This document shows positions 19,506-20,411 of a stretch of DNA of 64,000 nucleotides, in pieces. Position 1 is the stretch's first letter, and each line of letters begins with the position of its first letter. Below the pieces are notes generated by a model. It made no database searches, was not told where the DNA came from, and saw nothing but the letters and a program-made list of their open reading frames with translations. Origin of the DNA: Planctomycetota bacterium (lineage in GTDB: Bacteria; Planctomycetota; Planctomycetia; Planctomycetales; Planctomycetaceae); the NCBI GenBank assembly GCA_003388505.1, contig QQVO01000059.1:62501-126500 (forward strand), in the 5' to 3' direction. Made by a program: the position numbers and the translations under genes.

Positions 19506-20198
19506 ATCGCAATTCGTTTGGATTTCCTGAGTTCACTGGTTGACGGGGGGGTAGTCGCTGAATGGGGGCGGTTCAGATGTTTACAGGTCCACGCGTCGCT
19601 GCCGGCTGGGAGCCGTCGGGATCGAGTCGTACGCTGAAAGCGTACCACAGCAAAGCCAGGGATCAGCGAGCAACGCGAGCGTCATCCCTGGTCGTGAGTG
19701 CCTCAATCCCGGTGAACTCTGAAGGAGTTCCACAGTTTTTCCACCGGCTGTGGAACCCCGTTGGGGTTCCCGCGAACCTGTGGTCACGTGGACCGAGGGT
19801 GCGCTCCTGTCGTCGCGACCCTCGGCTTTGCTGTGCGACGCTTTCAGCGTCGTGTGTAATCGGTGCTCGAGATCACGAATCACGCTTCTCGAGTCGAGCG
19901 GCGCACAACCACGGCTCAAGCAGCACTGAACCTGCATATCACCCCCATTGAGCGACAACACCCCGGCTGACGACGCACGCCAACATCCGCTGTACGTGCA
20001 GTTCGATCCCGCAGTACAATGGAGGCGGCCGCTGGTCGCCGTTCGTGCAGTTGTCCTGTGAGACGAGGATCGCGAGCCTGCGGCCCGAACGGTCTCGATT
20101 CCATCAAAACACGAACCGTGTCAGATCGCAGCAACGAAGCTTCAGAACTTGGTATTCACATGTGACCGTTGGCATCGCCCCAATCGAAAGGAGTCCCC
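19506..20198. other. Long intergenic region with a cluster of hairpins
   Basis: About 690 bp with no conventional gene. The centre (19629-19852) holds a cluster of perfect short hairpins listed separately. The right end leads into the ribosome site of the selenoprotein gene at 20186-20192. A sequence GCAGTACAATGG near 20012 offers a possible -10 (TACAAT) without a good -35. Confidence 0.5.
19629..19852. repeat. Cluster of short hairpins inside an imperfect inverted repeat
   Basis: Outer arms (19631-19663 and 19819-19851) are imperfect inverted copies: ACGCTGAAAGCG...CACAGCAAAGCC against its reverse complement. Inside are GTACGCT-gaa-AGCGTAC (19629-19645), GAACTC-tgaag-GAGTTC, GTTCCACAG (19727-19735) with CTGTGGAAC (19748-19756), GGAACCCC-gtt-GGGGTTCC, and GACGCT-ttc-AGCGTC. 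Short 3-5 nt loops recur. Confidence 0.8.
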
Positions 20199-20411
20199 AT
20201 GCAGATTCGCATCACATACTGCAAAGAGTGAAACTACCGCCCCCAAGCCGCCGGTCTGGCGGACGCAATTCGTGACGACAAGGGCGTCGAGGCGGAACTG
20301 ATCCCGGGCGGAGGCGGGATCTTCGACGTCGAAGTCGACGGCCGGAGGGTCTACTCCAAATTCCAGACGGGACGATTTCCGGAGCACGAGGAAATCCTCG
20401 CGCAGCTCTGA
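20199..20411 (+). CDS. SelW-like selenoprotein (Rdx family) with in-frame UGA
   Basis: A 70-residue thioredoxin-like redox protein of the SelT/SelW/SelH (Rdx) family, encoded with TGA at 20229-20231 read as selenocysteine (residue 11). The N-terminus [20 protein letters not shown] gives the family CxxU redox motif right after beta strand 1. The second half carries [16 protein letters not shown] (39-54) and GRFPE (58-62), also diagnostic of the family. The frame is open apart from the TGA and ends at 20409-20411. A strong AAAGGAG ribosome site lies about 6 nt before the ATG. Nucleotides 20248-20262 form a SECIS-like hairpin. A conventional reading would stop after 10 codons or overlook the gene. 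No selA, selB, selC or selD is in this window. It is probably a cytosolic thiol/selenol redox protein. Confidence 0.9.
20248..20262 (+). promoter_or_regulatory. Putative bacterial SECIS element
   Basis: A perfect 5 bp stem CCGCC (20248-20252) and GGCGG (20258-20262) encloses the loop GGTCT (20253-20257). The loop begins 22 nt after the UGA. Known bacterial SECIS hairpins carry at least one G among the first two loop bases and lie roughly 16-37 nt after the UGA. The E. coli fdhF SECIS apical loop also contains GGUCU. It should recruit SelB. Confidence 0.8.

Follow-up and report, generated by a model that had tools for sequence, protein, structure and literature searches.

In Escherichia coli, SelB-GTP carrying Sec-tRNA-Sec binds the SECIS hairpin and is in competition with RF2 for the UGA codon (PMC4513850, PMC8659212), while the ribosome occludes approximately 11 nt downstream (PMC4513850). 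The constrained sites of the fdhF SECIS are G23-U24 in the loop and a bulged U17 (PMC8659212). A general bacterial consensus, developed by Zhang and Gladyshev and restated in PMC13188914, comprises a loop of 3–9 nt, an upper stem of at least 4 bp, a G in the first two loop positions, a spacing of 16–37 nt, an energy limit of −7.5 kcal/mol, and the pattern N1-G-[G|U]-N-N2, with N1 and N2 pairing. SelW-like proteins form a known, widespread family of bacterial selenoproteins (PMC1794560, PMC2398784) with Sec at the CxxU position (PMC2398784), and in Epsilonproteobacteria the SelW SECIS is a 5/6-bp apical hairpin a few nucleotides after the UGA, in genes that annotation often misses (PMC4607533).

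Our analysis concerns a gene of this family in a planctomycete window, the whole stretch of 64,000 nucleotides that was analyzed (Table 1). The gene shares with described bacterial SelW-like selenoproteins the Rdx domain, a CxxU motif with the predicted Sec at the second redox position, and a putative SECIS directly after the UGA, and differs from them in being a planctomycete member and a short, 70-residue form. Likened by description, it also resembles the epsilonproteobacterial genes (PMC4607533) in its apical hairpin after the UGA and in having escaped annotation, albeit in a different phylum. A search of the available literature found no paper on this planctomycete gene. SelW-like genes and their SECIS hairpins are already well known (PMC1794560, PMC2398784, PMC4607533), and the gene adds a member to them.

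Table 1. Features of the SelW-like locus, in window coordinates
Feature	Position	Strand	Basis
Probable ribosome-binding site, AAAGGAG, 5 nt before the ATG	20187..20193	+	Sequence; inference
SelW/Rdx-like selenoprotein gene (predicted), 70 residues	20199..20411	+	Matches to Pfam Rdx PF10262, NCBIfam NF041051 and TIGR02174
CxxU redox motif, codons TGC AAA GAG TGA	20220..20231	+	Alignment: C-x-x-U/C in 36 UGA and 14 Cys homologues
In-frame UGA, predicted selenocysteine codon	20229..20231	+	UGA at the same codon in homologues class-wide and in other phyla
Probable bacterial SECIS hairpin, stem CCGCC/GGCGG	20248..20262	+	Conservation and covariation in homologues
Third-position synonymous pair	20249..20261	+	Covaries C-G/U-A/G-C/A-U
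Apical loop GGUCU	20253..20257	+	RGUYU in relatives; R-U can close a GUY triloop
Terminal TGA stop	20409-20411	+	

The gene and its selenocysteine machinery

Translation of the TGA at 20229-20231 as Sec yields a 70-residue protein whose family matches extend across that codon: 64.7 bits to Pfam Rdx PF10262 (cut-off 22.6), 57.2 bits to TIGR02174 (cut-off 34.2), and 90 bits to NCBIfam NF041051 (cut-off 88). Among solved structures, its best relatives are Rdx/SelW-type proteins. Ordinary open reading frame calling breaks the gene at codon 11, and it is missing from the standard listing. Upstream lies a 34-nt inverted repeat (19631-19664 and 19817-19850), 85% complementary with its arms 152 nt apart.

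Alongside the Rdx domain and CxxU motif of the protein, its host encodes SelA, SelB, SelD, and tRNA-Sec. Matches to selA (528 bits), selB (340 bits over two neighbouring stretches), and selD (285 bits) adjoin one another on contig C33, and a tRNA-Sec with anticodon TCA (66.5 bits) is found on contig C22. A further match, on contig C14, fell exactly at the tRNA-Sec cut-off (47 bits) and was rejected as a tRNA-Leu. The selB-selA-selD cluster encodes SelD as a fusion, preceded by a pyridine-nucleotide-disulphide oxidoreductase domain (G000:C33, L207:4340-6850). Across 150 genomes of the same family, selA occurs in 65; these include all 35 of the 35 genomes with a UGA-containing Rdx gene, versus 30 of the 115 others (Fisher p = 1.6e-16, relatedness being ignored).

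A search of the host genome (G000) for Fdh-alpha returned nothing above the cut-off and pointed to a UGA-containing gene resembling FmdB/FwdB, subunit B of formylmethanofuran dehydrogenase (G000:C18:140888-142138, L214), with the in-frame UGA before HGPTEIAAQ (HGP motif). Its hairpin, CCGCCC-AGUU-GGGUGG, is conserved in 20 relatives apart from small synonymous changes, and the AGUU-loop structure resembles that of the SelW-like gene, a resemblance that we counted for the SECIS reading. Sec-containing FmdB has been reported in Planctomycetes (PMC4807772), and from its sequence this gene likely encodes a second selenoprotein of the genome. A UGA-containing FmdB-like gene also occurs in a genome, 86% complete, that gave no selA match at the threshold used (G005:C198:540-1793, L264), possibly due to a missing contig. 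Two SelW-like genes, from two species under one genus code (L194, G329:C222; L195, G345:C121), carry two in-frame UGAs in the motif YUAMUGYEP; in this UxxU arrangement the partner Cys appears to be Sec as well. A possible in-frame TAG was reported for G121.

Position and folding of the hairpin

The hairpin consists of CCGCC (20248-20252), the loop GGTCT (20253-20257), and GGCGG (20258-20262), in frame with the UGA, and its codons GCC GCC GGT CTG GCG specify Ala-Ala-Gly-Leu-Ala, followed by (Asp). Its sequence, its coordinates, and its location inside a coding sequence, here recognized as the SelW-like gene, thus stand as recorded in a first-pass annotation of this DNA. The distance of 22 nt from the UGA given there holds when counted to the first loop base, given that 16 nt intervene before the stem, which begins at 17 nt, and 21 nt before the loop. 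The same annotation had held the spacing and the G at the loop start to fit the bacterial SECIS rule, and they do: the 21-nt spacing lies in the 16–37 nt range, and there is a G in the first two loop positions. With the consensus the hairpin further shares a 5-nt loop, a 5-bp stem, the R-G-U-Y-U pattern, whose R and final U are predicted to close the loop in the consensus fold, an energy of −8.2 kcal/mol (limit −7.5), and retention of stem and loop in Sec homologues; no tested feature differs.

The comparison with E. coli fdhF is more qualified. GGUCU had been cited as part of its apical loop, and the motif does occur, but the loop proper is GGUC, closed by an A-U pair that takes up the final U of the motif (PMC8659212). 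In the fetched gene, GGUCU lies at +19 (+22 in the planctomycete gene) within the fold GGU-U-GCA[GGUC]UGC-ACC. In both genes the stem-loop is part of the coding sequence, and G23-U24 aligns with G20254-U20255. Unlike the E. coli element, with its A-U-closed GGUC loop and bulged U17, the planctomycete stem is continuous, or in relatives carries a 1x1 mismatch at 20250-20260, and has no bulged U; all four bases occur in column 20250, where U is never obligatory.

Folded in isolation, the 47 nt from 20229 to 20275 are unremarkable (z = 0.26 against dinucleotide shuffles). A bSECIS-like hairpin of equal quality arises somewhere in range in 26% of synonymous recodings, and the same five pairs return in 20%. 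The minimum free energy structure pairs an upstream CCGCC (20237-20241) with GGCGG at 20258-20262 (probability approximately 0.54), leaving the hairpin at 20248-20262 a probability of 0.37; this value rises to 0.99 when the first 13 nt are occluded, a removal that mimics a ribosome with the UGA in its A site. The fold-energy comparison put forward in the first-pass annotation therefore fails on the single sequence, which is no better than shuffled or synonymously recoded controls, and the case for a SECIS rests on conservation. A scan of the window against Rfam at gathering thresholds gave no match and carries no evidential weight.

Covariation among homologues and competing readings

We gathered 143 homologues with the UGA (127 distinct sequences), which come from the family and the class and also from other phyla, represented among others by records of Desulfuromonadaceae, Syntrophaceae, Myxococcales, Peptococcaceae, Chloroflexi, and Limisphaerales. 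The region from the UGA through the hairpin was aligned by codon position, ungapped. The alignment bears out the compensatory changes and loop conservation for which the first-pass annotation had proposed to look: synonymous positions of the stem covary, and the GU of the loop persists. Pair 20249-20261 is formed in 125 of 127 sequences (98%; CG 99, UA 9, GC 8, UG 5, AU 2, GU 2), pair 20251-20259 in all 127 (CG 62, UA 39, UG 26), and pair 20252-20258 in 126 (99%), with pair 20250-20260 tolerating mismatches (paired in 112). For the two pairs that join codon third positions, synonymous codon resampling predicts only 30% pairing at 20249-20261 and 45% at 20252-20258. Sliding the 3' strand by 1–3 nt lowers pairing from 93% to 14–59%. 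In the loop, G20254 never varies, and 125 of the 127 retain U20255 despite its being a codon third position; third-position entropy is 0.42, 0.13, and 0.22 bits at codons 7–9 after the UGA and 1.5–1.9 bits at codons 11–20. RNAalifold, unprompted, recovers the hairpin together with an R-U pair that closes a GUY triloop. With the hairpin codons left out of the tree, pair 20249-20261 underwent at least 21 state changes (18 and 17 for the separate sides), a count that is only indicative because the tree is weakly supported; independent contrasts on this tree of 60–70-residue proteins number 2 on well-supported branches and 16 on all.

Cys homologues present a different picture. Pair 20249-20261, the diagnostic one, survives in 4 of 19 distinct sequences, the loop GU is not maintained, and partition-function calculations give the hairpin a probability close to zero, a contrast that partly reflects protein divergence because most Cys homologues belong to other Rdx subfamilies. 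In the nearest of them (L071, G067:C23:43463-43672) the loop is AGCCU and the pair is broken, in a genome that has selA; its sequence likely records a Sec-to-Cys change with a decayed hairpin.

Could the hairpin be a by-product of a conserved Ala-Ala-Gly/Ser-Leu-Ala segment and GC-rich codon bias, without function as RNA? The z-score near zero and the ease with which synonymous recodings restore the five pairs favor this view, but it does not predict third-position pairs that pass through four Watson-Crick types while pairing in 98% of cases against 30% expected, a collapse of third-position entropy exactly at the loop, or the absence of the hairpin from Cys homologues. We regard it as refuted by the synonymous-site covariation and give it a very small residual probability. 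Equally improbable is that the true element is the alternative fold of 20237-20241 with 20258-20262: it is the preferred structure of the free 47-mer, but the upstream CCGCC is missing from most homologues, the proximal pairing holds in 93% of cells, and the proximal hairpin dominates once the ribosome-covered bases are removed.

Still less credible are two explanations that deny the UGA its role as a Sec codon. That it is a true stop, or that the gene has decayed or been misassembled so that the downstream frame is untranslated, accords with the end of the called frame at codon 11, but 36 family-level loci, and more than 100 in total, retain the UGA together with a conserved downstream protein, and the genome has sel genes. 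Decoding as another amino acid, for example by Cys or Trp suppression, with a hairpin that only slows the ribosome, is an explanation that has nothing specific in its favor and to which we give no more weight, considering the strict association with selA, the selB, selD, and tRNA-Sec genes of the host, and a CxxU position at which SelW-like proteins are known to carry Sec (PMC2398784). The gene family, the sel machinery, the covariation of the stem, and the conservation of the loop GU together support the original SECIS reading, and we consider it highly probable (roughly 0.96), judging from sequence comparison, that the hairpin at 20248-20262 is a bacterial SECIS for Sec insertion at the UGA of the SelW-like gene.

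Proposed mechanism and implications

We propose the following model for the decoding of this mRNA, in which SelB binding, Sec insertion, and the redox function of the product are inferred by analogy with E. coli. With a ribosome at the UGA, the entry channel would cover roughly the next 11 nt, preventing the competing upstream pairing, and the stem-loop, whose first base is 17 nt past the UGA, would stay folded just outside. SelB-GTP with Sec-tRNA-Sec would then recognize G20254-U20255 in the loop and, tethered at the ribosome, bring Sec into the A site instead of RF2. The ribosome would go on to translate the hairpin region and stop at the TGA at 20409, producing a 70-residue CxxU thiol/selenol redox protein.

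What is the relevance of the missing bulge? It is conceivable, though we think it rather unlikely, that SelB of this lineage reads a SECIS subclass without the bulged U17, defined by a short stem and a closed GU(Y) triloop, in which case the loop GU alone would carry SelB recognition. That such a subclass tolerates the 1x1 mismatch three pairs below the loop in many relatives is a similarly tentative proposal. The 127-sequence alignment, with its synonymous covariation, offers a clean data set on the requirements of bacterial SelB, which, as far as these sequences indicate, apparently are a loop G-U and a paired stem, with no bulged U. For the organism, a SelW-like gene broken at its UGA by routine annotation is restored, and predicted SelW-like selenoproteins with such a SECIS prove to be widespread in its class and present in other phyla.
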